The notes below the pieces were generated by a model. That model made no database searches, was not told the origin of the DNA, and worked only from the letters and a program-made list of their open reading frames with translations. Both the position numbers and the translations under genes were made by a program. 34,911 nucleotides of DNA from a virus, in the IMG/VR virus record IMGVR_UViG_3300047319_001126, positions 1 through 34,911 of that record; one strand, written 5' to 3'. Positions 3,060 through 34,602 of this stretch are shown here, in pieces (the first letter of the stretch is position 1; each line of letters begins with the position of its first letter).

Positions 3060-3383
3060 TCACGCCTTATCGGCTGCTTTCCTCGCCCTGTCCCGCTGCC
3101 TCTGCCATGCCTCAAGCTCATTGAGCGTCGGCTTCGCGTTGATCCAGTCGGGCAGCACGTCGCTCACGTTCATGCGGTCGTATGCGGGCGACTCGACCTC
3201 TAACTTGTATGCCGCTAAAGGCTTCGGGGCCACAGCGGGCAGCTCATGCGCTCCTGTGCCAACGTAGAGGCGCATCCTCTCGTCTACGCGTTGCCGGTAG
3301 CGCGTTACCCTCTTGACCTCGCGGTGTACCGCGAGGATTAAGCCGACAAGCATGATGCCAAATGCGAATAAAAGCGGAATCAT
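3060..3383 (-). CDS. Small membrane-anchored protein, 107 aa
   Basis: An N-terminal hydrophobic helix (IPLLFAFGIMLVGLILAV, residues 2-19) is followed by a basic, helical cytoplasmic part and a helical end (LNELEAWQRQRDRARKAADKA). The ATG overlaps the stop of the upstream gene (ATGA, 3380-3383), so the two are coupled. Both this and its upstream neighbour have an N-terminal membrane helix and a similar Pro/Lys-rich middle (PKPLAAYKLE here, TKPLAGRLPL there), so they may be distant paralogues. Function unknown. Confidence 0.75.
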   Translation of the reverse strand: MIPLLFAFGIMLVGLILAVHREVKRVTRYRQRVDERMRLYVGTGAHELPAVAPKPLAAYKLEVESPAYDRMNVSDVLPDWINAKPTLNELEAWQRQRDRARKAADKA

Positions 3384-3722: not shown

Positions 3723-4013
3723 TTAGTCCGCCTTTCGTAGTTCAGCTTGAGCGCGTTGTAGTTTCGCAAGGTTCATCTCAGCCTGCCAGAGTTTCTTAGC
3801 CAGGCGCATCCTCTCGTCGGGCATCAGCGTATGATTAGGGTCGACCCGATCCATGCGCTTGGTCCAGAATGCCTCTGTGGCCGGCCTCACGGCCTCTCGC
3901 CCATCGTAGCCCGGCTTACTCTGCCTCCTGGCAGCGCCTACCTTGCCTGAGAGTGAGGCAATGCGCCGTCTCAGGGCCGTGCGTTTGGGGGATAATTCGC
4001 CATTGTCTTTCAT
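3723..4013 (-). CDS. Hypothetical basic protein, 96 aa
   Basis: Not recognised. An ATG at 4013 follows AAAGGAT. It is strongly basic at the N-terminus (KRTALRRRIASLSGKVGAARRQSK), with a C-terminal helix (MRLAKKLWQAEMNLAKLQRAQAELRKAD) likely to form a coiled coil. It sits in the early leftward operon between a helical protein and two membrane proteins. A nucleic-acid-binding role would fit the charge but is unproven. Confidence 0.7.
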   Translation of the reverse strand: MKDNGELSPKRTALRRRIASLSGKVGAARRQSKPGYDGREAVRPATEAFWTKRMDRVDPNHTLMPDERMRLAKKLWQAEMNLAKLQRAQAELRKAD

Positions 4014-4054
4014 CCGTGGTATCCTTTCTGTGAGCCCTCGCCAGAGTACTCACC

Positions 4055-4348
4055 TCACGCCGCTTGAATGTTCATGCATTCGGCGGCTTTCTCTTCGTCC
4101 ATCAACCGCTGGTAATCTCTGATTTCGATCTGCATATGCCGGTCTATTTCGCCGCCCCGGATCATCCGGATGCCGATGCGGGTCCGGCAGGCTTGCTTGA
4201 TGCTTGCCAGCTTGATCCTTGTGGCAGATGCCGTAATCTCTGCTCTCTCAATAGGCGTTATCACGCCGTCGCGTAGGGCCGATGCAACGATCTGCTCGTG
4301 CTGCTCAGTCAACTCGCATATCTCTACCTGCTTCGCCAGGATTTGCAT
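4055..4348 (-). CDS. Hypothetical helical early protein, 97 aa
   Basis: The start at 4348 is chosen because AAAGGAGG lies nine bases before this ATG; the longer frame to 4414 lacks a ribosome site. The product is almost all helix (QILAKQVEICELTEQHEQIVASALRDG; ERAEITASATRIKLASIKQACRTRI), reminiscent of small phage proteins in which alternating acidic and basic helices form a bundle. Not recognised. It follows the SWIM protein gene after an 81-base spacer. Confidence 0.7.
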   Translation of the reverse strand: MQILAKQVEICELTEQHEQIVASALRDGVITPIERAEITASATRIKLASIKQACRTRIGIRMIRGGEIDRHMQIEIRDYQRLMDEEKAAECMNIQAA

Positions 4349-4429
4349 TGCTTTCAACCTCCTTTCGTGTGGAATAAAGAACAAGCCGCAGCCTCGGCTA
4401 TGATTAGCCTGCATGAATAAAAGAGGGGT

Positions 4430-4738
4430 TTACCAGCGCTCTTTGACGCGCTCTCGTCGAGTTACTGCATGAGTGGGAGGCCGGCTGTAGTCAAACAGGT
4501 CTTCGAGCCGAACATTGGGCCGCTTGGCCACATCCCGAGCCGGCAGGATAGCGGGCCTGATGTCGAGCTCGTCAAGCAACTGGATGAGGTGGGCGCATGA
4601 ATGCTTGTAGAAATAGCCCTCGCAAGTGCAGGACCATTCGCCGCGCTCGTCACAGGTAAGGTCGTATGTTTGCAAGGTGACCGTGCGGCTCTCGCACCAA
4701 AAGTGAAAACGACTGACTTCGTGAAACTTGATCTTCAT
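4430..4738 (-). CDS. SWIM zinc-finger protein, 102 aa
   Basis: It has one SWIM motif, C37-x-C39-x8-C48-x-H50 (WSCTCEGYFYKHSCAHL). The preceding strands (VTLQTYDLTCDERGEWSC) match the usual SWIM beta-hairpin. SWIM domains bind DNA or protein partners and often accompany helicases or recombination factors; here the domain stands alone with a 50-residue tail ending in RRERVKERW. The start overlaps the excisionase-like stop by one base (TAATG at 4740-4736), so it is the second gene from the early promoter. Confidence 0.85.
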   Translation of the reverse strand: MKIKFHEVSRFHFWCESRTVTLQTYDLTCDERGEWSCTCEGYFYKHSCAHLIQLLDELDIRPAILPARDVAKRPNVRLEDLFDYSRPPTHAVTRRERVKERW

Positions 4739-4929
4739 TACGCTACCTTGGTCCTTCGTTGGGCCTCGCGGCGGGCGGCTTCGCGGAGGATGTATTCCCG
4801 CGAGAAGATGAATTGCTTCCCTAGCTTGGAGAGGGGCTGAAGTTTGCCGTTACCCGCTTGCCGCCAGATGGTCGCCTCGGAAACCCCGAGTATTTCCGCC
4901 GCTTCTTTTGTGCCGATCAGTTCTCCCAT
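4738..4929 (-). CDS. Excisionase-like HTH_17 DNA-binding protein, 63 aa
   Basis: IGTKEAAEILGVSEATIWRQAGNGKLQPLSKLGKQFIFSR matches the HTH_17/MerR-like fold of small phage excisionases and regulators: a helix-turn-helix at 6-24, then a wing. The start at 4929 is chosen because GGGAG precedes it by ten bases and because the longer frame to 5010 would begin upstream of the promoter. It is the first gene of the early leftward operon, divergent from the repressor. Most likely it binds the att region to direct excision, or regulates the switch; the family does not tell these apart. Confidence 0.8.
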   Translation of the reverse strand: MGELIGTKEAAEILGVSEATIWRQAGNGKLQPLSKLGKQFIFSREYILREAARREAQRRTKVA

Positions 4930-4948
4930 GTGCTTCATTCTCCCGTGA

Positions 4949-5036
4949 TGCAATAGTTCTTGCACCTTTAGTGTAACACTTCTTACGCGGAATTGCAATA
5001 GGTATTTCACCCAATTTATGAAAGAAGTATTGCAAG
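4949..5036. promoter_or_regulatory. Candidate repressor operators in the lysogeny switch
   Basis: Three TTGCAA-type sites occur here. TGCAA-N6-TTGCA lies at 4949-4964, just after the leftward start site. TTGCAATA (4993-5000) covers the leftward -35. TATTGCAAG (5028-5036) covers the rightward -35. An 11-bp palindrome AGTGTAACACT (4970-4980) lies over the leftward -10. Symmetry and position suit a dimeric XRE repressor controlling both promoters; binding is inferred. Confidence 0.6.
4970..4998 (-). promoter_or_regulatory. Early leftward promoter
   Basis: On the minus strand TTGCAA (4998-4993), a 17-base spacer and TACACT (4975-4970) form a good sigma-70-type promoter. The predicted start near 4963 gives a leader of about 34 bases before the excisionase-like ATG. 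Confidence 0.7.
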
Positions 5037-5058
5037 CTATGTGGCGCTCGGCTAGAAT
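5030..5058 (+). promoter_or_regulatory. Repressor maintenance promoter, leaderless transcript
   Basis: TTGCAA (5030-5035), a 17-base spacer and TAGAAT (5053-5058). The expected start at 5065-5066 coincides with the ATG of the repressor, so the mRNA would be leaderless, as known for the lambda cI transcript from PRM. Confidence 0.65.
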
Positions 5059-5065
5059 GAGACCG

Positions 5066-5431
5066 ATGGGGCAGGAGTGGTTTGAGAAGCTACGGGCTCG
5101 GCGTGAGGAACTCGGCTGGACACCGGCTCACTTGGCCATGCGCGCGAAAATCAGCCGGCCACAAATCGTGCACATCGAAGCCGGGGATGTGCGTTACCCG
5201 CGCAGAGAGACTGTGATGGCGCTGGCTGAAGCCCTGGGGATTGACTACGACGCGCTGTATGCCCGTAAGCTGCACGAAGAGCCGACGATATACGAACCGC
5301 TTGACCCCCAGCTAGAGCAGATTCAAGTGAACCTGAAGGCGATCAAACGGCTTGACCCGGAGAAGATTGACGAGCTGGCTGACATTATCCTGGCTGTCAA
5401 GGAAAAAACAGAGAGAGAGGCCCAGAGTTGA
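5066..5431 (+). CDS. XRE-family phage repressor, 121 aa
   Basis: The HTH_3/XRE domain spans about residues 5-65 (FEKLRARREELGWTPAHLAMRAKISRPQ, then IVHIEAGDVRYPRRETVMALAEALGID), followed by a short helical C-terminal part (LEQIQVNLKAIKRLDPEKIDELADIILAV) that probably dimerises. There is no LexA/CI-type peptidase, so induction would not rely on self-cleavage. The start at 5066 is preferred to 5018 because the promoter -10 ends at 5058. Divergent from the excisionase-like gene and upstream of attP and the integrase gene, it is the expected lysogeny repressor. Confidence 0.85.
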   Translation: MGQEWFEKLRARREELGWTPAHLAMRAKISRPQIVHIEAGDVRYPRRETVMALAEALGIDYDALYARKLHEEPTIYEPLDPQLEQIQVNLKAIKRLDPEKIDELADIILAVKEKTEREAQS

Positions 5432-5883
5432 ACTACCCACCGCCCCCGCCCCAAGCTCCACCTCGCCGGCGCCGCCCGATCTGGCAATGGGGCTGCGGCG
5501 CTCTGATCGTCCTGCTAGTTTGTGGTGGAATCGCTGCGATCGCCTCGCCCAAAAGCCCCAGCTCGCCGGCAGTGAGTGTGCCCACGGTTGCGCCAGTGGC
5601 ATCAGTTACTTCGGCTCCGATCCCTACAGCAACCGCAGTAATGGCCCAGCCGCCTCCACCGCCCACAGTCGTTCCGAGCCCAACGGTAGACCTTGCGCTT
5701 TCTCTTGAAGCGACCATTACTGCGCAAGCGAAGCTGCCCCCCAACGTCCGCTACGCGCCCCCTGGCTGCACGTCCGGAGTCCAATACGGCTCATTGTGTA
5801 AGGACGGTTCTTTTTCTACCACGGTGGGGCAGGGAGCATGTTCTGGGCACAAGGGTGTTCAGCAGAAGCTAACGTGCCCTTGA
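5428..5883 (+). CDS. Membrane-anchored DUF3761-like protein, 151 aa
   Basis: The order is: a proline-rich, basic cytoplasmic N-terminus ([16 protein letters not shown]), a membrane helix (about 23-41, [17 protein letters not shown]), a Pro/Ser/Thr/Val-rich linker, and a C-terminal module with [17 protein letters not shown] and [15 protein letters not shown]. The last resembles DUF3761, a small cysteine-rich extracytoplasmic domain. A TTG start overlaps the repressor stop (TTGA) after GAGAGAGG, so it is co-expressed with the repressor in the lysogen. A lysogenic-conversion or superinfection-exclusion role is a reasonable inference. Confidence 0.75.
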
Positions 5884-5893
5884 CCCCACACCA

Positions 5894-6077
5894 ACAAACT
5901 GCACAGAAAGGCCGCGCCTGACATACGTGACCCCACGCCGACACATAGCGAAAGGCCTTCTAAGTAGTGGGTCGCAGGTCCGAATCCTGCCGGGCGCGCT
6001 CCGTGCCTACACACAACCACAAACTGTAAAAGAGGCCGATATGCCCAACCCCTCACCGACTATACAGCAACAAACTG
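5894..6077 (+). promoter_or_regulatory. Candidate integrase/excisionase arm sites around attP
   Basis: ACAAACTG occurs at 5894-5901, 6019-6026 and 6070-6077, in similar longer contexts (CAACAAACTGCACAGAAAGG; CCACAAACTGTAAAAGAGG; CAACAAACTGAGCAGAAAA). They flank the tRNA-like core on both sides, as arm-type sites do. The same motif also precedes two candidate promoters at 31001 and 33892, so a wider regulator is possible. Confidence 0.5.
5956..5998 (+). other. attP: attP core: 3' half of tRNA-Arg(TCT)
   Basis: The stretch reads as the anticodon loop with anticodon TCT (5959-5961), the variable loop, a T-arm GCAGG-TCCGAAT-CCTGC (5974-5990), the 3' acceptor strand CGGGCGC and a discriminator G, and then leaves tRNA sequence. 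The 5' half of a tRNA is absent and the anticodon stem does not pair, so this is not a functional tRNA gene. Tyrosine integrases often use such tRNA 3' halves as identity cores. It lies 43 bases before the integrase ATG. Confidence 0.85.
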
Positions 6078-7009
6078 AGCAGAAAACAGATAGCTACACA
6101 CAAACGCTGGAGAGCTTCCGGCGTTCCCTTTTGGCTGCTAATAAGAGCCATACCACCATTCTAGCATACCTGCTCGGCCCGCGCGCTCTGGGTGACTTCC
6201 TTCGCGACCAGGGAATGCCTCTAGCGATAGAACACATCCGCCGCGAGCACATCGAGAGCTACCTTGCCTACCTTCGCAACCGGCCTCACCAAAGGACAGG
6301 GAAGCCGCTGTCCGACTCTACCCTGATAAACCACTACAAAGGACTGAAGGCATTATTCGCCTGGGCGGTCGATGAGGATGAGATAAGACGTTCTCCATTA
6401 GAGAACATCAAGCCGCCCCATGTGGGAGAGATCGCCGTGCCGGTGCTGTCAGAAGAGGACATCAAGCGATTGCTGAAGAAGTGTGAGGGGAGAGACTTCT
6501 ATAGCCGGCGGGATATGGCCATGATCCGCATCCTGCTCGATACGGGTATGCGCCGGCGCGAGCTGGCCAACATCAAGCTGGAGGATATCAACTGGGAAGA
6601 GCAGGTCATCTACGTGGTGGGCAAAGGCAACCGGCCCCGGGCGTGTCCCTTTGGCAGAAAGGCAGCCCTGGCGCTCGATCGGTACATAAGAGCACGTCGT
6701 GACTATGGGCGTCACGGCTCCAATGCGCTACCTAACCTGTGGGTAGGTAAAGCAGGGCCAATGACCGATTGGGGCGTGTCTCAAGCCATCGTAGCGCGTT
6801 GTGAGGCGGCGGGGATCAAAGGCGCTCACCTTCACCTGTTCCGTCATAACTTCGCGCACAGGTGGCTGTCAGAGGGCGGCGAGGAAACAGACCTCATGCG
6901 CCTGGTTGGGTGGCAATCTCGGTCGATGGTGGGCAGGTATGCGAGGTCAACCGCTGACGAGAGGGCCAGGGAAGCGCACAGGAGGCTTGCCCCTGGCGAC
7001 AGGCTATGA
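6041..7009 (+). CDS. int: Tyrosine-family integrase, 322 aa
   Basis: An N-terminal SAM-like core-binding domain (about 15-110) is followed by a catalytic domain. The expected residues are present: R171 in TGMRRREL, K195 in [10 protein letters not shown]265 and R268 in HLFRH, W291 in place of the second histidine (LVGWQS), and the nucleophile Y300 in GRYAR. It would integrate the phage at a host tRNA-Arg through the adjacent attP. The start at 6041 is taken because AGAGG precedes it; the longer frame to 5927 would translate attP. It ends convergently with the glycosidase-like gene, sharing six bases. Confidence 0.95.
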
Positions 7010-16952: not shown

Positions 16953-19757
16953 TTAGACACCTCTCCTGGTACGCACACTCGCGCTTAGTTCTTCTTCGAG
17001 CTGGTCAATGAAGGAGGAGGCAAACGTGGAGCCGTCCATGCCTGGGTAAGCGTAGATGTTGAGGGTTGCAATCGTTATCGCGTTACCGCCTATCGGGGTA
17101 AAGCCTACGCCGAAGGCACGCGCACCCTGACCGCCTGAGCCTGCCAGCGGTTGGTTGGGCCCATAAGCAGGATTGCCACCCGTCTGCCCGCCTCCCGGGA
17201 GATAGGCGGGGTTTTGCGGGTCGTATGCAGGATTGCGGTAAGCCGGCTCGCCGGGATTATATGCGGGGTTTTGTGGATCATAGGCGGGGTTTCTATACGC
17301 AGGCTCGCCGGGGTTATAGGCGGGGTTGCCGTTGCCAGGCTCATACGCCGGGTTGCGATATGCGGGCTCACCAGGAGCATACGCGGGATTGCCGGCTGTT
17401 TCCTTTGCCTGCTTTTGGCCCGCGGCTATCTTGGCTATGATGCCCTTCTGCACGGCATCCCAGGCATCTGAGAAGCCCTGACCTATACCCGTGGCCATCG
17501 GGGTGCCCACCTCGTCGGCCATGAGCTTTGATGGCGATGAGATGCCAAAGAACTTCTTGACAGCGTCCACCAGCCCGCCCAGGAGGCCCGTTACCCAGTT
17601 AACAAAGGAGTTCCAACCGTTCTGTATGCCCTCGCGGATGCCGTCTACGATGGCGCGGCCTATAGCCAACACTTTTTGAGCAGCGCCGCTAGCCGTCTGC
17701 GTTATCCACGTCCAGATGCCCTCCGCTATTTGAGCGAGCTTTGCGCCTATCGTGGCAAGCACACCACCCGGCCCCGTGATCCAATTCCAGAAGGCCGGCA
17801 GCCACTCATTGACTAACTTTGAGCCGAGGTCTTTAGCTGTTTGCGATAGCCATGTCCATAGGGCGGATGCGATATTGCCGAGCCAGATGGGCAGATTAGG
17901 CAGCACGCTCTTGAATATCCAGTCGAAGAAGGCATCCTTCCAACTCTGTAGCTTCGCGTAGATACCTGGTGCGTTATCAACTATCCAGTTCCACAACGTG
18001 CCTATTAGACTACCTAGCCCCTGGAGGAGAGCAGGCAGGGCAGTATTGAGCACCCACGCGCCGAACGCCTGCGCCCATGTAAGGAGCTGCTGGGCTATCC
18101 CCGGCCCATTGGCCACTATCCAGTTCCACAGTGAGCCTACGAGCGAGCCGAGTTGTGACAACAACCACGGAAGCGCCGTAGTAAGTACCCAGTTCCCAAA
18201 TATCTGTGCCCACTGTAAAAGTTGTGCGGCGATGCCCGGCCCGTTTGTCGTAATCCAGTTCCACACAGCCGTAATGAGCCCGCCCAATGCTTGCAGGAGA
18301 GCCGGCAGAGCTACCGTCAACACCCAACCGGCGAAGGCTAAAGCCCACTGGCCAAGCGTCTGAAGTATGCCCGGCCCGTTCGCCCCTATCCAACCGACAA
18401 TAGCCTGGAATAGCCCGCCCAATGCGGCGAGCACCTGGGGCACAGCCGCTTGTACCCATTGCCACAACAGCGCGCCTATCTGCTGGAGGGCCGGCCCGAT
18501 CTTCGGCCCTGCCTCCTGTATAGCCGCGCCCAGGTTCCCAAATAGTTGACCGATTGCATCGCCTATGCTCGCACCTTTGCCTAGCGTATCAAAGAATGTT
18601 TTGAAAGCATCAATGAACGGCTGCATAATCGGCTGCACGATCCCCCACACGGAGCGCACCATGTCGCCGATGCCCAGGAAGTTGGTCTGGAAGGCTATAA
18701 AGAGACCGGCAACCACAGCCCCGATTAGGAGGAATGGAGCCATTGCAGCCAGCGTCGCCGAAGCTGTAGCGAACAAGGCGGGCAGCGTGGTAGTAAGCAT
18801 AGTGGTGCCCCATGCTATGAAGGCGGGCACGACCTGAGAAAGAATGATTGAGCCTACCAATATCAGGATGGGCACCGCGTTATCTCTCAGGAAACCACCG
18901 AAACTTATGAGCGCAGGTAGCGCAGTACCTATCAAGAAGTTGAATACGCCCTCTAATACAGGCTGTAAGTCTGTGAATGCCTGCTGGAGCATCGCCGCGC
19001 CTTGACCGAGCGTGGTGCCTATGAAGTCAGCGAACGCCTGAAAGCCCTGCTGAAACTCCGGGGAACTGATGAAGTTAGCCAGCCCTGACAAGGCTTGAGT
19101 GACCGATGGCAATATCTCATGCCCCACCGTCTCAAGCGCGTCACCGAAGGCGGTCTGGAGGCGCTCCATGCCGCCTGCCGCGCTGTCAGCATATGCCTGG
19201 GCCTGACCTGCGCTCGCCTTCTGTATGGCTGCCAGCGCCTCTGTGGACGTGGCTCCCTTGTCTACCGCAATGCCGTAGCGCCCCAGGATGCCGACGTTGC
19301 CCCCGTATACTTTGCCTACAATATCGGTGGCAGTAGAAAGATCGATATTCTTGGCACGCGCAAGGTCCATGGCGGTAGCCTGGAGCTTCTGTGCTTCTGT
19401 GAGATCGTGTGTGCGTGGCACCAACTTGTTGAGGCTGTCGCGTACATCGTCATCGGCAAAGGCCATGTTCTCCATCTTGGAGACATAGCCCTCCACCGCG
19501 TCCTCGTTGCCCTTCCAGCCTGGAATGTTCGCTGTGAGCGTGGTGCCCAGGCGGTCCATGCCGACCTGCTCGTCACTGGCCGCCTTCGTAGCCTCCACCA
19601 GGAAGCCGCCCAAAGCCAGGATGGAGCCGCCTGCGGCGATGGCCCCGCCCTTGACGAGGTCGCCCATGCCCCCGCCCTTTTCGCCTATGGCATCCAGGCC
19701 GGAGGAAGCGTTATCTTTGAGGCTGACCAGCAGTTCAAGCGCGGCTGTTGATGGCAT
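16953..19757 (-). CDS. Tape measure protein, 934 aa
   Basis: It is the longest gene, directly after the frameshifted chaperone pair. The N-terminal 130 residues are a helical region with an SLDxLG-like EQVGMDRLGTTL segment. There are hydrophobic stretches at about 290-390. Five or so 45-residue repeats follow, each centred on WNWI..NGPGI and WV.(T/N).ALP.LL. A KFFGISSPSKLMADE motif, common in siphovirus tape measures, comes next. Near the C-terminus, eight NPAY and three EPAY tetrads alternate with Pro/Gly (DNA about 17145-17395). It sets tail length and helps DNA entry. Confidence 0.92.
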   Translation of the reverse strand: MPSTAALELLVSLKDNASSGLDAIGEKGGGMGDLVKGGAIAAGGSILALGGFLVEATKAASDEQVGMDRLGTTLTANIPGWKGNEDAVEGYVSKMENMAFADDDVRDSLNKLVPRTHDLTEAQKLQATAMDLARAKNIDLSTATDIVGKVYGGNVGILGRYGIAVDKGATSTEALAAIQKASAGQAQAYADSAAGGMERLQTAFGDALETVGHEILPSVTQALSGLANFISSPEFQQGFQAFADFIGTTLGQGAAMLQQAFTDLQPVLEGVFNFLIGTALPALISFGGFLRDNAVPILILVGSIILSQVVPAFIAWGTTMLTTTLPALFATASATLAAMAPFLLIGAVVAGLFIAFQTNFLGIGDMVRSVWGIVQPIMQPFIDAFKTFFDTLGKGASIGDAIGQLFGNLGAAIQEAGPKIGPALQQIGALLWQWVQAAVPQVLAALGGLFQAIVGWIGANGPGILQTLGQWALAFAGWVLTVALPALLQALGGLITAVWNWITTNGPGIAAQLLQWAQIFGNWVLTTALPWLLSQLGSLVGSLWNWIVANGPGIAQQLLTWAQAFGAWVLNTALPALLQGLGSLIGTLWNWIVDNAPGIYAKLQSWKDAFFDWIFKSVLPNLPIWLGNIASALWTWLSQTAKDLGSKLVNEWLPAFWNWITGPGGVLATIGAKLAQIAEGIWTWITQTASGAAQKVLAIGRAIVDGIREGIQNGWNSFVNWVTGLLGGLVDAVKKFFGISSPSKLMADEVGTPMATGIGQGFSDAWDAVQKGIIAKIAAGQKQAKETAGNPAYAPGEPAYRNPAYEPGNGNPAYNPGEPAYRNPAYDPQNPAYNPGEPAYRNPAYDPQNPAYLPGGGQTGGNPAYGPNQPLAGSGGQGARAFGVGFTPIGGNAITIATLNIYAYPGMDGSTFASSFIDQLEEELSASVRTRRGV

Positions 19758-19760
19758 TAG

Positions 19761-20371
19761 CTAATTCTTTTCCTTCGCTTTGGCGTTCATGTTCTCGGCC
19801 TCGGAGCGCGCCGACAGGCTATCCAGGAAATCGGGGTCGAGCGCGTCTACTTGCTCAGGCGTCCAGTTGAAGCGATACGCCAGGTTGACGTAGATGTCCC
19901 ACTCGTTGATGGGCTTCACGCGCGTTGCTTCGGAGCGGAGGCGTTCTTGCCATTGCCTGACAAGGCGGTTGTGGAGGATAAAGGGTCGACGGGCTTGCCG
20001 GCCTCCACTACTACAGCCTTGCGGTTCAGCTCGTTTATCCTGGTCAGCACGGCGTCCACCAGCGGTGCGTCGGGGTCAAGGCTTTCGATAGCCTGGGGCG
20101 TACATGGGACTGTGCGCTCGTTCTCGTCTCGAAAGTCCGGGCCTTCCCAGTCGATGATGTTCATCTGCAAGAGAAGCGTGTTGTATCTGCCCATGTTCAC
20201 GTCCATGCGCTGAAATGTGCGCGTGCCCATGTTCACGCCGTCCACCGACATGAGGGCATCCTGTAACCTGTTCTGAGTGCCCAGGTCCATCTTGCGGCGC
20301 ACCCATACCACGTTGGTGCCGCCGTCTACGCTGACCGACACTCGGTCATCTTTCTTGATGAAAATACTCAT
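19761..20371 (-). CDS. Tail assembly chaperone fusion made by -1 frameshift, 203 aa
   Basis: Ribosomes that slip back one base at C_CCT_TTA (19985-19979) after 131 codons continue for 72 codons in the other frame, from ILHNRLVRQWQE to AENMNAKAKEKN, and stop at 19763-19761. The second frame reads as a real protein (INEWDIYVNLAYRFNWTPEQ) and ends three bases before the tape measure ATG. This is the usual gpG/gpGT arrangement (known in lambda). The second frame could also start at a GTG overlapping the first stop, but the slippery heptamer is in the right phase. Confidence 0.8.
19916..20371 (-). CDS. Tail assembly chaperone, short form, 151 aa
   Basis: It starts at 20371, where GAAAGGAAAGCA leads into ATG-AGT; the longer frame begins at 20395 without a site. 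The product (VSVSVDGGTNVVWVRRKMDL; QNRLQDALMSVDGVNMGTRT; LVDAVLTRINELNRKAVVVE) matches the size and place of gpG-like chaperones, between the tail tube and tape measure genes. It binds the tape measure during tail assembly and is absent from mature virions. Past codon 131 the sequence is low in structure, as expected beyond a frameshift site. Confidence 0.82.
   Translation of the reverse strand: MSIFIKKDDRVSVSVDGGTNVVWVRRKMDLGTQNRLQDALMSVDGVNMGTRTFQRMDVNMGRYNTLLLQMNIIDWEGPDFRDENERTVPCTPQAIESLDPDAPLVDAVLTRINELNRKAVVVEAGKPVDPLSSTTALSGNGKNASAPKQRA
19979..19985 (-). promoter_or_regulatory. Programmed -1 frameshift site
   Basis: The heptamer CCCTTTA on the minus strand fits X_XXY_YYZ in the zero frame (GAC-CCT-TTA). 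No strong downstream stem was worked out by eye. Confidence 0.75.
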
Positions 20372-20383
20372 TGCTTTCCTTTC

Positions 20384-20420
20384 AAAAAGAAGCACCCCTA
20401 ACCTTGCGGCTAGAGGCGCT
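20384..20420 (-). terminator. Rho-independent terminator after tail tube gene
   Basis: A 13-bp stem with three G-T wobbles (AGCGCCTCTAGCC and GGTTAGGGGTGCT), capped by a GCAA tetraloop, is followed by CTTTTTG. It lies between the tail tube gene (ends 20459) and the chaperone start. Partial termination would lower chaperone and tape measure output relative to tube subunits. Confidence 0.75.
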
Positions 20421-20458: not shown

Positions 20459-21721
20459 TTAGAGCGATGCGCTTGAGTTTTGTATCCTCACCCGGCAATC
20501 GCTGGCGATCTGTGACGAATACACGCCCTTGATCGTGAACGTTACCGTGCGGTTAGTGCCTTCCAGGTCGCCCCAGTCGAGCACACCCAACTTGCCCTGT
20601 ATGTCCATCTCCCAGAAGGGGTAAAGGCTACCCTCAATGGCTGTAGCGCCGTTGAACCTAACGCGAGCCTTGACGGTCGTGCCTGCAATGAACATGGCTG
20701 TGTGAGTAGTGTCGATGAGCTCCATCGTCACCTTCATCTCAGGATGGGCTTTCTTGCGGCCCACATGATCATAGGTCACCCCGCCTGCCGGCCCGGTGGC
20801 TACATACTTGGGGGTTACACCGGTGGGTATAGTGCACTCAGCACTCACCACGCGGCCTGTAACGGCCGTTGTACCGAAGGGTGCGGTAGTATTGCCCTCA
20901 AGCCAGAACTGCATCCTGCCGGGCACCAGGAGCGGCCCCACTGCAATCGCAGGCAGCACGGGGATCGAGCCGCCTGTCAGCTCCGTGGGGAACTGAGCGA
21001 TGCCGTCAACGGTGTTCATTACACCGTCTGTGGTTGATGCGTTGCCCGTGACTTTCCAGGAGTTGAGCATCCCGAACGGGCCTTTATAGAATACCGTGTT
21101 GGGATCGCCCCAGTACATCGTGGCGCTCTTGATGGTGTCGGAGGTCATCACGCGCACCCACTCCCACAGCTCGGCGGTGGTGGCCGTAGTGGACACTGTG
21201 GATGTAGCGCTTGCGCCCGTGCCTGTATGCCCTGTAAAGGTGAGGGCGGGGGCAGATGTGTAATGTGAGCCGGGGTCGAGGACAGCCAGCGCTGTGATGA
21301 CACCCGCTACTGTAGTGGCCTGTATGACCGCCTGGCGGCCACCTGATGCCGGAGCACCCACCCCGATATTGAACGTGCCATCCGAGGGCACGAAACCCGT
21401 GCCGCCTACCAGCGATGTATAACCCGTGACTTCACCGCCTGCTAGCACGCCGGCAGACAGGGGGCCAAGTACCATGTTGGCGATGAGGGGCGCTTTGGTT
21501 ATGTCCATCCCGCCATCTGCTGAGAACGTGGCCGTCTTGCGGACTATCTCGGAGCGCTCGTATTCGGCCAGCACGCCCACCATATCGTTAGGGAAGAACT
21601 CATCCTCCACGGGCTTGAGCGTGCCCGCCATGTTCAGCAGGTGCGTAGGCGGCGTGACGGGTGTGCCCCTGGCACTCTCAAGGGCGAGGCCCAGGGCTTC
21701 AAAAGCAATTTCTTGTCCCAT
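20459..21721 (-). CDS. Major tail (tube) protein, 420 aa
   Basis: The opening GQEIAFEALGLALESARGTPVTPPTHLL matches a phage tail tube protein family: a small N-terminal loop, then the tube beta-barrel. A central insert (residues about 115-185) rich in Gly/Thr/Ala resembles an Ig-like decoration. The C-terminal part has the barrel strands (FWEMDIQGKLGVLDWGDLEG, RTVTFTIKGVYSSQI). It is long for a tube protein, owing to the insert. The ATG shares its first base with the upstream stop (TAATG). It is followed by a terminator. Confidence 0.75.
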   Translation of the reverse strand: MGQEIAFEALGLALESARGTPVTPPTHLLNMAGTLKPVEDEFFPNDMVGVLAEYERSEIVRKTATFSADGGMDITKAPLIANMVLGPLSAGVLAGGEVTGYTSLVGGTGFVPSDGTFNIGVGAPASGGRQAVIQATTVAGVITALAVLDPGSHYTSAPALTFTGHTGTGASATSTVSTTATTAELWEWVRVMTSDTIKSATMYWGDPNTVFYKGPFGMLNSWKVTGNASTTDGVMNTVDGIAQFPTELTGGSIPVLPAIAVGPLLVPGRMQFWLEGNTTAPFGTTAVTGRVVSAECTIPTGVTPKYVATGPAGGVTYDHVGRKKAHPEMKVTMELIDTTHTAMFIAGTTVKARVRFNGATAIEGSLYPFWEMDIQGKLGVLDWGDLEGTNRTVTFTIKGVYSSQIASDCRVRIQNSSASL

Positions 21722-24156: not shown

Positions 24157-25389
24157 TTACACGCCTGTGACTTTGCAGAAAGCTGCGGGGCGGTAGATTT
24201 CCAGGGACAGCCTTTCCTCGATCACGGCCAGCACGAGGTTCTTCACGGCGAAGTCGCTGTGCTGATCGTAGATGCGCAAGGTCACGCCTGTGCGGCGGGA
24301 GATATGGGAGTACATCCCGAAGTCGCCCACCAGGATTGTGTTCTCTGTCTCAGCAGGCGTGATGATGAGGGGCTTGCCCCACAGTCGCTCAATCTGCACG
24401 TCGTAGGGATTGCCCCACACGTAACGACCGAGGCCGTCCTGAAGTGTGGCTACGTCCACCCAATCATTGGGGTGGATCACGATGCCGTCAGGCTCCGCGA
24501 AGCCAGGAGTAGAACCGCCGGCGCGGATGTCTGTCATGGCCTTGTACACGGCTGTCGGCGTAGGATCGCCGCCCTTTGCCTGGGTCTGCGTGCCGGACCT
24601 GTGCAGGAAGCCGTCCAGGTGGGAGCCCGTGCCGTCGCCGGTCAGAAGCTCAACCTCTTCGGCCAACTGAAGCATAAGGCCCAGCCGGGAGTTGATGAAC
24701 GCCTGCGCCTGCGGCACGTCCTCCAGCTGCTCTTCAGAGATGGGCAGTGAGTTGGCGATCTTCACGACGGGGGAGGTGCGCTCGGTGAAGGCCAGCGCGC
24801 TCTCAGGCTTTGTGCCCGCTTCAGCCACGACCGCCGCGTTATTGGTGAACGTGGTCTCTTCCATGTACTTGATCGAGGACAGAACGGTGGGGTCTTGCGG
24901 GATCAGGTCAGCCACTACGGGCCGGCGCTGACCGGAGGGGATCACGATGTTCGTCCTGGGGTTGGCAGGCGCCCAGCCGGCCGAGGTGAGGAAGTTGGTC
25001 TTCTGCTGCATGAACGCGCCGTAGTCGAAACCGGGCATCTCTACGGTGCCCCTGAAGGCGCCCTTTGCCTCTCGATAACCAGCGTTCTGCGCGAACAGCT
25101 CACCGAGGCTCTTCTGGTTGTCGTTAGTGGGGCGGGAGCCGTCTCCGAAGCCGATGTTGTTGACGGGCGTATTGAGGAAGTTCATCCTGTCGTTGTTCTT
25201 GGTTGCGATGTCGAGCACGCTCTGAGCCTCTACGCGCTCGTCCTCGATGCGGTTCAGTTCTTCGTTGCGCTTCTTGATCTCTACCAGGTCATCCGAAGTG
25301 AAGGACTTGGTAGATACGTCGCCCATGAACTCCTGGAGCTCACGGGTCTTTGCGGCCAATTTATCGGCCAGCTCTTGTGCCTTGTTCAT
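24157..25389 (-). CDS. Major capsid protein, HK97 fold, 410 aa
   Basis: The N-terminal 95 residues are a charged helical delta-domain (MNKAQELADKLAAKTRELQE; IKKRNEELNRIEDERVEAQS), expected to be removed by the prohead protease. The HK97 core follows: the VVADLIPQDPTVLSSIKYME segment, LPISEEQLEDVPQAQAFINS, the spine GIVIHPNDWVDVATLQDGLG and the C-terminal DFAVKNLVLAVIEERLSLEI. It overlaps the protease stop (ATGA, 25386-25389), as in most HK97-type operons. Confidence 0.95.
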   Translation of the reverse strand: MNKAQELADKLAAKTRELQEFMGDVSTKSFTSDDLVEIKKRNEELNRIEDERVEAQSVLDIATKNNDRMNFLNTPVNNIGFGDGSRPTNDNQKSLGELFAQNAGYREAKGAFRGTVEMPGFDYGAFMQQKTNFLTSAGWAPANPRTNIVIPSGQRRPVVADLIPQDPTVLSSIKYMEETTFTNNAAVVAEAGTKPESALAFTERTSPVVKIANSLPISEEQLEDVPQAQAFINSRLGLMLQLAEEVELLTGDGTGSHLDGFLHRSGTQTQAKGGDPTPTAVYKAMTDIRAGGSTPGFAEPDGIVIHPNDWVDVATLQDGLGRYVWGNPYDVQIERLWGKPLIITPAETENTILVGDFGMYSHISRRTGVTLRIYDQHSDFAVKNLVLAVIEERLSLEIYRPAAFCKVTGV

Positions 25390-26618
25390 CTCGTTGTTAC
25401 TCCTCTGCGCGCGGTGTCGCGCCTGACCATAGACAGGATTGCATCCTGGATAAGTTGATTGCTCTTTTCTTTTTCTGCGTTGTCGCTCCCCTCTTTCGGC
25501 TTGGGTGAAGCCCCGGCCAAGAGCTTCTCCAGCTTGGAGGCGAGCGTTGCGAGCTGTGTCTTGAGGTCGTCAAGCTCGCTCATATTGGCCGCGCTAAGGA
25601 CACGGCCCTCTTTGGTACGCATATTGGCGCGCTTCTCGGCCCGAACCACTATCGAACGCGCGGCGTCAGCCACCGCGTGCAAGCCCGCTGCGAAGCCCGA
25701 CCCGTCAACCAGGCCGTTCTTGCGTGCGCTTCGGTTCCTGCCTGAGTAGCCCATACCGTTAGGCATACCCATTTGTGCTGTTTGGTCGTCGCCTTCTTCG
25801 GCGGCTTGATCCTCGTTCGTGTCCTCTGCGATGTCAGCGGCGATGATAGAAGCCTTCAGCCTGGCGGCGAACTCGTCCACGGCCTCTGATACATTGCCCG
25901 CGAAGTCGAAAGGCAGCATGAGTGTCTCTGCCGCTTCGTCTTGCTCCTGTATGTCCTCCAGGACCGAACAGAACACGCACCAAAGATTCCACGGGTTGTT
26001 GGTCATCTCGGCCAGCTCGTCCTCGTATGCGCCTTTGACGTTCAATCGGCTAGCTCCACTTTTCACAGACGTAACCTCCGCGCTGCGTAACATGGGCAGC
26101 GAAACAATCGAGCCTTCATAGAGCTCGACTTTGGGGAGTACTCGCACACGGGCGAACTTGGTCGCTTTCGCCAGGTTCTGCTGAACCAGGTCAGGCGATG
26201 AATATTGCGGTAACTGCTCGGCATAGTCTTTGGGAAAGATGAACACGGGCGGCGCAGTAGGCTCGTAGCCGATAGACATATAGACACCAAGCCCGGCGTC
26301 TATGCGCTCCTGCGCCTTCGTTCGTACTAGCTGCGAGTCGGGGGTTGAGTGGTACTTGAAGGCCACATACAGACCGGCCTTATCCTGCTTGGCAGACACG
26401 GGGTATCCTGGGAGCTTAGAGAAGGTCCAGTCATGCGAATCAGCACCGAAGCCCCGCTGGAGGAACTGAGGTATGGTATCGGTAAATGCGCCGGCTGCTA
26501 CAATGTCGCCGCCGTCGTCCAGCTCTCCGAACTTGGAAAGATAGCCTTCCCAGCCGCCCGGGCCATCGGATACAGCTTTGAAGTCTGCCAGGTTTATGTA
26601 CTTGGTTTCTTTGGTCAT
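25386..26618 (-). CDS. HK97-type prohead protease with scaffold-like extension, 410 aa
   Basis: Residues 1-190 match the U35/S78 prohead protease: GWEGYLSKFGELDDGGDIV, H62 in ADSHDWTFSKLPGYP, and S115 in GVYMSIGYEP as candidate catalytic residues. Past residue 200 come an acidic region, a Met/Gly-rich stretch (QMGMPNGMGYSGRNR) and a coiled coil (MSELDDLKTQLATLASKLEK), together resembling a scaffold. It matures the capsid and may guide its assembly. It is about twice the length of a lone protease. A terminator lies just upstream, at 26647-26687. Confidence 0.85.
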   Translation of the reverse strand: MTKETKYINLADFKAVSDGPGGWEGYLSKFGELDDGGDIVAAGAFTDTIPQFLQRGFGADSHDWTFSKLPGYPVSAKQDKAGLYVAFKYHSTPDSQLVRTKAQERIDAGLGVYMSIGYEPTAPPVFIFPKDYAEQLPQYSSPDLVQQNLAKATKFARVRVLPKVELYEGSIVSLPMLRSAEVTSVKSGASRLNVKGAYEDELAEMTNNPWNLWCVFCSVLEDIQEQDEAAETLMLPFDFAGNVSEAVDEFAARLKASIIAADIAEDTNEDQAAEEGDDQTAQMGMPNGMGYSGRNRSARKNGLVDGSGFAAGLHAVADAARSIVVRAEKRANMRTKEGRVLSAANMSELDDLKTQLATLASKLEKLLAGASPKPKEGSDNAEKEKSNQLIQDAILSMVRRDTARRGVTTR

Positions 26619-26646: not shown

Positions 26647-26687
26647 CAAAAAGAGAGCCGCCCCCGGTATCGGGGATGGCTCTCTTT
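26647..26687 (-). terminator. Rho-independent terminator ending the moron-like unit
   Basis: AAAGAGAGCC and GGCTCTCTTT (26687-26678 and 26659-26650) form a 10-bp stem, with an inner CCCCGATACCGGGG hairpin, and TTTTTGC follows on the minus strand. It lies between the zinc-ribbon ORF and the protease gene start at 26618, so it should end the short transcript and attenuate late transcripts. Confidence 0.85.
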
Positions 26688-26726
26688 GGAGCTTGGTCTG
26701 GGCCTCAGCGGGCCTTGTTTATTCTG

Positions 26727-26879
26727 TTATCGAGGTAACGTTAGTATATTTTCTACGTTACAATTTCGGCACTTATGATGATACTCTCCGGTGCTATCCG
26801 CCGTATACTTGGCAATTAAGCGACCGCACACACGGCAGCGCCACTCAAGCAATATGACTTTTACACCTGTCTGTATCAT
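26727..26879 (-). CDS. Com-like zinc-ribbon ORF, 50 aa, moron-like
   Basis: C15-x2-C18 and C37-x2-C40 (WRCRVCGRLIAKY; YHHKCRNCNVENI) form a small zinc ribbon of the plan of phage Mu Com, an mRNA-binding translational activator. The ATG at 26879 has GAGGGG upstream but lies inside the -10 box of the local promoter, so translation from that start needs read-through mRNA; a TTG at codon 10 could serve the local transcript. The stretch is visibly more AT-rich than its neighbours and has its own promoter and terminator. Confidence 0.65.
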   Translation of the reverse strand: MIQTGVKVILLEWRCRVCGRLIAKYTADSTGEYHHKCRNCNVENILTLPR

Positions 26880-26903
26880 AATCCCCTCATGCTGCCATGT
26901 CAA
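26875..26903 (-). promoter_or_regulatory. Near-consensus promoter inside the late operon
   Basis: TTGACA (26903-26898), a 17-base spacer and TATGAT (26880-26875) on the minus strand. The start would be near 26868, giving a transcript of about 220 bases to the terminator. It overlaps the start codon of the zinc-ribbon ORF. Confidence 0.75.
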
Positions 26904-26906
26904 TAG

Positions 26907-27461
26907 TTAGTCCACAACAGGCGCGAACGCCCTGGTGCAGTTGGGGTGAGCTATCGGGTTGGCCTCCGCATCCTCTAAGCTCCATATCTGCCCGTCCGCC
27001 TCTGAGCACTCAGCGTCGCCGTCGCCGTCCATCACTTCGACCTTATCCACCTTGGCCTCTCGGTAGGACATCACGGCGCCCACGTTGTAGGCTGTGGCTG
27101 TCTCACTCCTGGCTATCGTCTCCGAGCGGCTGGTGGAGGATGTGATGCCGTAATCCCTGATCTGCTTTGCTATCTCGTCTGTGCTCGGTGTCTTGTCTGC
27201 TGAGAAGGCTCGGTCGAGCAGCCCACGCAGGTCATCCTTTGTGCTGTCGGCCATACCCGTAACCCGCTTGGCGAGGTCTTTCACTGTGGCCTGGACGTGT
27301 GGGTTCTTGACGTCGAAGGCGCCCAGCACCGAGAGCTTATCGCCGGCATCACCCCAGGCTATCTCCAGGAGGTCTATGTACTGAGGCACCATGACATCCA
27401 CCATGTTAGAGGCGTGCTCGTCCCAGTCTACTTCGTCAAGGATGTCGGTGGTGGCGGTCAT
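26907..27461 (-). CDS. Head morphogenesis protein, MuF/SPP1 gp7-like, 184 aa
   Basis: RSETIARSETATAYNVGAVM is the signature of the Mu F/SPP1 gp7 family, followed by KVEVMDGDGDAECSEADGQI and ANPIAHPNCTRAFAPV, with Cys and His as a possible metal site. The N-terminus is helical. This protein is shorter than many relatives. It acts at the portal vertex inside the head. The ATG overlaps the portal stop (ATGA, 27458-27461). Confidence 0.88.
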   Translation of the reverse strand: MTATTDILDEVDWDEHASNMVDVMVPQYIDLLEIAWGDAGDKLSVLGAFDVKNPHVQATVKDLAKRVTGMADSTKDDLRGLLDRAFSADKTPSTDEIAKQIRDYGITSSTSRSETIARSETATAYNVGAVMSYREAKVDKVEVMDGDGDAECSEADGQIWSLEDAEANPIAHPNCTRAFAPVVD

Positions 27462-30959: not shown

Positions 30960-30989
30960 ATCATATCAGCCTCAGCAGCGCTATGTCAA
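30960..30989 (-). promoter_or_regulatory. Late promoter ahead of terminase
   Basis: TTGACA (30989-30984), an 18-base spacer ending TGA, then TATGAT (30965-30960): a consensus -35, near-consensus -10 and the extended TGn motif. An ACAAACTG motif sits 11 bases upstream of the -35 (31001-31008). From here all following genes to 7004 run in the same direction. Confidence 0.75.
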
Positions 30990-34230: not shown

Positions 34231-34268
34231 TCCTAGATCGGTAATGAGATTGGCAGTTCTCGGAACTA
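34231..34268 (-). repeat. Boundary element E7
   Basis: It starts at the TAG stop (34268-34266) of the XRE gene and reads TAGTTCCGAGAACTG, then CAATCTCATTACCGATC. GATTAGTTC and GAACTGCCAATC can pair imperfectly. It differs from the consensus in the fourth base, lacking one G. Confidence 0.6.
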
Positions 34269-34565
34269 ATCTTCTTCGTGAAGTGTCGCCCGAAGCCTCT
34301 CAAAACCTACGACTACGGTGGATGCGAGGACATTGAACCCCCGACAGTCGGGCGGTAGCCGGTCCGCAGCATAGTAAAAGAAGTCGGTCGGACCACCTAA
34401 CGCCTCGGCAATCAGTTCGATAATGGCGTCCTTTGGCGGGTTGCGGCGATCCCTTTCGATGTCATTCAGATATTGCTCCGAGATGCCCAGCTGGGTTGCA
34501 AGGGCTTTACCCGAAAGATTGCCCGCAATGCGCCACCCTCGGACCACCGAACCAAATGTAACCAT
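34266..34565 (-). CDS. XRE-family regulator, 99 aa
   Basis: An HTH_3 domain fills residues 5-62 (VVRGWRIAGNLSGKALATQL; GISEQYLNDIERDRRNPPKD; IIELIAEALGGPTDFFYYA), and a short C-terminal region follows (CRGFNVLASTVVVGFERLRA). The start at 34565 has TTGGAGG seven bases upstream, in element E8; the TTG at 34577 is part of that site. Being early, small and unlike the main repressor, it may act as a Cro-like or late regulator. Its TAG stop opens E7. Confidence 0.8.
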   Translation of the reverse strand: MVTFGSVVRGWRIAGNLSGKALATQLGISEQYLNDIERDRRNPPKDAIIELIAEALGGPTDFFYYAADRLPPDCRGFNVLASTVVVGFERLRATLHEED

Positions 34566-34602
34566 TACAGCCTCCAATTATCCGTATGCTTCTCGGAACC
34601 TA
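34566..34602 (-). repeat. Boundary element E8
   Basis: It starts at the TAG stop (34602-34600) of the 53-aa ORF: TAGGTTCCGAGAAGC, then ATACGGATAATTGGAGG. The 3' part matches E2 (ACGGATAATTGGAGG), although the two lie on opposite sides of the window join. Confidence 0.7.

Follow-up and report, generated by a model that had tools for sequence, protein, structure and literature searches.

A promoter–zinc ribbon–terminator unit at the MuF–protease boundary of a temperate phage, read as a candidate cassette for gating late transcription

The DNA analysed here (the window) comprises all 34,911 bases of a single viral record, IMGVR_UViG_3300047319_001126 of IMG/VR, from a temperate phage whose late operon lies on the minus strand. 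It encodes a tyrosine integrase (5927–7009; phrog_1, 6.5e-42), HTH regulators (5018–5431 and 34266–34577), an amidase and a tape measure protein, and the late operon gives Pfam matches for the portal (3e-47) and the capsid (6e-41). A reading of this DNA from sequence only had placed a moron-like unit, with its own promoter and terminator around a Com-like zinc-ribbon open reading frame (ORF), between the MuF-like and protease genes. Pfam confirmed both neighbours, and all of the named elements are present, which confirms the cassette as a real unit with the following features:

26907–27461, minus strand: MuF-like head morphogenesis gene (Pfam Phage_Mu_F, 2e-8), the neighbour upstream of the cassette
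26875–26903, minus strand: sigma-70-type promoter, TTGACA-17-TATGAT (11/12), against a mean of 0.15 sites as good in shuffled windows
26883–26888, minus strand: Shine-Dalgarno-like GAGGGG before the ATG of the ORF, upstream of the predicted +1
26868, minus strand: predicted transcription start, placed by the spacing rule only, 7 nt past the −10 box (±2)
26730–26879, minus strand: 50-codon C4 zinc-ribbon ORF, weakly Com-like, with two CxxC motifs (AlphaFold pLDDT 83)
26650–26687, minus strand: intrinsic terminator hairpin and U-tract (−26.5 to −28.3 kcal/mol), ending about 31 nt before the protease ATG
25386–26618, minus strand: S78-type prohead protease gene (Pfam Peptidase_S78, 1.8e-5; phrog_80, 1.9e-9), the neighbour downstream of the cassette

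The stop codon of MuF is separated from the −35 box by 3 nt. The near-perfect promoter that had been proposed consists of TTGACA (26903–26898), a 17-nt spacer and TATGAT (26880–26875), and its 11/12 match was scored against the sigma-70-type consensus, the phage being uncultured. The window as a whole has just one further 11/12 promoter, which is likewise on the late strand and lies upstream of the small terminase gene:

30960–30989, minus strand: second 11/12 promoter, TTGACA-18-TATGAT, 12 nt before the TerS ATG

Dinucleotide shuffles of the window (n = 100, both strands) contained a mean of 0.15 such promoters, and 1% of them reached two. Each of the two TATGAT boxes contains an ATG preceded by GAGG, so that start codons feed the −10 match of both promoters and the properly spaced TTGACA becomes the informative part. 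This overlap would suit a coincidence, in which TATGAT comes from an ATG that follows a T, TTGACA is there by chance and the terminator alone is real. We regard such a coincidence as very improbable, given two sites against 0.15 expected, each of them preceding late genes on the late strand, and given that the pairing of promoter and terminator recurs in phages whose −10 box is no start codon. A regulatory spacer common to both window promoters was also considered and dropped, as the similarity of the two spacers was not significant (18% of random pairs were as alike). With its predicted start, the second promoter would give a TerS message with hardly any leader (about 6 nt).

The ORF begins within the cassette promoter, as had been claimed: its ATG (26879–26877) sits inside the −10 box, and the Shine-Dalgarno-like sequence likewise lies upstream of the predicted start. 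Because of these two positions relative to about 26868, a transcript from the cassette promoter cannot initiate translation at the ATG; in frame, the next candidate start is the TTG of codon 10, which has no visible ribosome-binding site. Judging from these signals, the ORF can be translated from mRNA coming through MuF. The higher AT content ascribed to the segment was evident as well, with a GC content of 0.447 in the ORF versus 0.588 in the late region (the 0.5th percentile of 150-nt windows) and a GC3 of 0.44 versus 0.76 in MuF and 0.67 in the protease gene.

Of the Com-like zinc ribbon, the zinc ribbon stood, but the Com label was weak. The two CxxC motifs and an AlphaFold model with four beta strands and a zinc-ribbon-like shape (pLDDT 83) agree with a zinc ribbon, whereas the ORF gave no match to Pfam PF10122, which a Mu Com control matched at 2.7e-9, and matched phrog_6417 weakly (E = 0.017). 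A direct search with the 50-residue sequence returned no homologues in viral contigs or phages, and Foldseek with the model against the PDB returned only weak matches, which included several zinc ribbons (lowest E 1.5). Mu Com (PF10122; phrog_6417), which binds mRNA and activates translation of mom, is likewise a short C4 zinc ribbon with two CxxC motifs, but the window ORF is not followed by a mom-like gene.

The terminator, AAAGAGAGCCATCCCC-GATA-CCGGGGGCGGCTCTCTTT (26687–26650), is as strong as had been suggested, at up to −28.3 kcal/mol, and is the strongest terminator-like site in the window. The predicted 222-nt cassette RNA folds better than 200 of 200 shuffles (z −3.6), an excess due largely to the terminator, and an Rfam search found nothing.

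Among relatives, the presence of the unit varies, rather than being conserved in all of them at the same GC content. The nearest relative, L006 (TerL 65% and portal 47% identical), has a different small ORF and no TTGACA right after MuF, and portal searches found no other close relative. Four MuF-type relatives from the capsid search (L118, L119, L120 and L122) carry other small ORFs at the MuF–protease junction, and in three more (L124, L129 and L131) MuF abuts the protease with no small ORF between. Because it is absent from these seven junctions and replaced in L006, the cassette is optional. In Gordonia phage Cynthia, which has a related protease, the portal and protease genes overlap and leave no room for a cassette, and cultured phages were of no help. 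A terminator-like hairpin, GCCCTCTTCGGAGGGC, with a T-tract lies between MuF and protease at 3255–3280 of L166, and also in L169 and L175, with no TTGACA promoter or zinc-ribbon ORF.

The same elements recur, non-randomly and together, before proteases of another type, in several distantly related phages gathered by capsid- and protease-anchored searches. A C4 ORF, a TTGACA promoter and a terminator precede a ClpP-type protease gene in L143, L146, L158, L163, L178, L186, L230 and L244. On 70 non-redundant ClpP-type junctions, the promoter and the C4 (CxxC..CxxC) ORF occurred jointly in 7 and neither occurred in 63 (P = 8e-10), the seven loci not being independent events, as several are mutually related; a reversed-consensus control gave 0/70. 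Six of the seven loci further contain, directly ahead of the protease gene, a terminator at least as strong as −17 kcal/mol (promoter–terminator association on the 70 junctions, P = 1.5e-6). At S78-type junctions (n = 45), terminators of this strength were found only in the window and L150, both with a promoter; L150 has a 127-nt promoter–terminator interval and an ORF without cysteines, and L144 has a weaker version of the cassette. In whole records, TTGACA-TAnnnT was found at 16 sites in 11 records, versus 2 for the reversed pattern. The window, L150, L230 and L244 seem to represent separate lineages.

In these relatives the promoter overlaps the end of the C4 ORF, the terminator ends a few nucleotides before the protease gene, and the interval between them is about 73–96 nt, so that the RNA is predicted to be short and non-coding. 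Because the zinc-ribbon ORF carries the promoter at its 5′ end in the window but at its 3′ end in the relatives, the window's unit may not be homologous to their cassettes. The window ORF aligned to the relatives' C4 ORFs with a probability of 65% in hhalign, and the corresponding ORF of L178 matches phrog_6417 at 2e-6, the best among the relatives. Five related cassettes share a self-pairing helix in the leader, two base pairs of which vary in a compensatory manner (one of them as A-U, G-C and U-A), which is suggestive of a conserved leader RNA structure, five sequences being no proof; the window's cassette RNA has no homology to this leader. Duplication of the 5′ terminator arm was rejected as a general rule, as it is seen in L178, L186 and L244 (p 0.001–0.005) but not in the window or L230. 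At 4886–4945 of L186, the TTGACA-18-TAGCAT promoter is tandemly duplicated as a 30-bp repeat that lengthens the end of the zinc-ribbon ORF.

Guided by the arrangement of these elements, we propose, with a probability of about 0.5, that the unit is an insertable promoter–leader–terminator cassette at the portal/MuF–protease boundary of the late operon that gates late transcription; the window's unit is best read, on present sequence comparisons, as such a cassette and not as a plain Com moron. We infer that it is transcribed, that it terminates transcription in vivo and that it acts as a gate. In this reading, a discrete RNA of about 220 nt would be transcribed constitutively by the host polymerase and its main sigma factor, from around 26868 to the hairpin close to 26650, where the terminator would shield the protease, capsid and tail genes from this transcription. 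As its ribosome-binding site and ATG are both ahead of the start, the zinc-ribbon protein would be translated solely from longer late mRNA that enters from MuF. Late transcripts would have to read through the hairpin or be antiterminated there, so that the cassette would also set, or gate, the amount of transcription that arrives at the protease and capsid genes.

Morons, which are transcribed independently and usually in the lysogen, are optional, compositionally odd units with a promoter and a terminator inside a late operon, such as the ant moron of P22-like phages (PMC2629481). The cassette shares with them its insertion in the operon relative to relatives, its own promoter and terminator sequences and its deviant composition, and in both, read-through may tune the next gene. 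The moron reading thus holds for a discrete, compositionally odd and optional unit with its own promoter-like and terminator sequences, but not for Com as its product. A short RNA or leader is the likelier product, as suggested by the ORF start upstream of the predicted +1 and by the promoter of the relatives overlapping the 3′ end of their zinc-ribbon gene; the small-RNA alternative, raised in the sequence-only reading, comes closer to the relatives, whose promoter and terminator enclose nothing but a short RNA. A classic moron, whose cargo would be the zinc-ribbon protein, expressed in the lysogen by a promoter of its own and delimited by its own terminator, would account for the order of promoter, ORF and terminator, the low GC and the optional insertion. 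We consider it unlikely, because the ATG is inside the −10 box with the Shine-Dalgarno upstream of +1, because the next in-frame start, the codon-10 TTG, has no visible ribosome-binding site, and because the relatives' ORF is outside the promoter–terminator interval. Unlike in phage morons, the coding region is not wholly inside the transcription unit, the ORF starting upstream of the predicted transcript; the enclosed product in the relatives is predicted to be non-coding; and the trio recurs at the same boundary. The cassette may act as a gate of late transcription, as a moron-like insertion that the lysogen expresses, or as both.

A second site of this kind lies at the tail junction. L178 and L186 have another CxxC-type ORF, TTGACA promoter and terminator between a gene in the position of the major tail protein and a small gene, which in L186 is followed by the tape measure gene. 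The corresponding junction in the window contains the only other very strong late-strand terminator, with no recognizable promoter before it:

20383–20420, minus strand: further strong terminator on the late strand (−22 kcal/mol), flanked by the inferred genes for the major tail protein (20459–21721) and for tail assembly
19916–20371, minus strand: inferred tail-assembly gene, directly after the second terminator, named from its position before the tape measure gene, with no family match itself
16953–19757: tape measure gene (phrog_58, 1e-31)

Gene order supports the correspondence of this junction to those of L178 and L186; BLAST showed no link between the gene at 19916–20371 and the tail-assembly genes of L279 and L280.

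Such leaders recall lambda PR′–tR′, a late promoter whose leader terminator is overridden by the antiterminator Q (PMC6606751, PMC4825925); as in the cassette, a sigma-70 promoter, a short leader and an intrinsic terminator precede late genes (PMC6606751). Under a control of the Q type, a constitutive late promoter and a leader terminator overridden by a phage antiterminator would stand before the protease–capsid genes and sometimes the tail-assembly genes too. Leaders of about 60–220 nt, terminators that end shortly before structural genes, the presence of two such leaders each in L178 and L186, and the likeness of the spacers of the two L186 promoters (11/18, reached by 0.4% of random pairs) are all in its favour. 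It is nevertheless doubtful: no Q-like gene or other antiterminator was recognized among the window genes scanned with PHROGs and Pfam, many of which have no family; the spacers of the window promoters show no such likeness (see above); and the cassette, which may occur twice per genome, follows terminase and portal, unlike the lambda leader. In the prophage Gifsy-1, the IsrK sRNA/mRNA is a short RNA that ends at an intrinsic terminator, and both its read-through into the genes that follow and its action in trans have been demonstrated (PMC4825925). The predicted cassette RNA would likewise end at such a terminator and be extended by read-through, but the genes and the place differ. It is also conceivable, though unlikely, that the trio is a recurrent module in which a C4 zinc-ribbon RNA-binding protein is encoded in cis with a constitutive promoter–short RNA–terminator leader at one or two structural-module boundaries (protease–capsid and tail assembly), and acts on the leader RNA to control read-through.

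A limited literature search found no description of the trio of promoter, C4 ORF and terminator, which suggests that this possible gate or hitch-hiking unit had not been singled out previously. If the cassette is real, several phage lineages have placed, within the operon that they express most highly and immediately ahead of capsid or tail genes, a host-type promoter and a strong terminator, nearly always with a zinc-ribbon gene alongside. It would then offer a concrete and cheap test of late-operon gating without a recognized antiterminator, as well as a candidate class of prophage small RNAs which, having no gene inside them, escape annotation pipelines.

At 3970–5517 on the plus strand of L006, the nearest relative, the MuF gene contains an intein-like insertion (Pfam Intein_splicing, E 9e-6, below the curated cut-off). 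On the opposite strand, at 4531–5448, lies a 305-residue ORF with a weak resolvase-type HTH.
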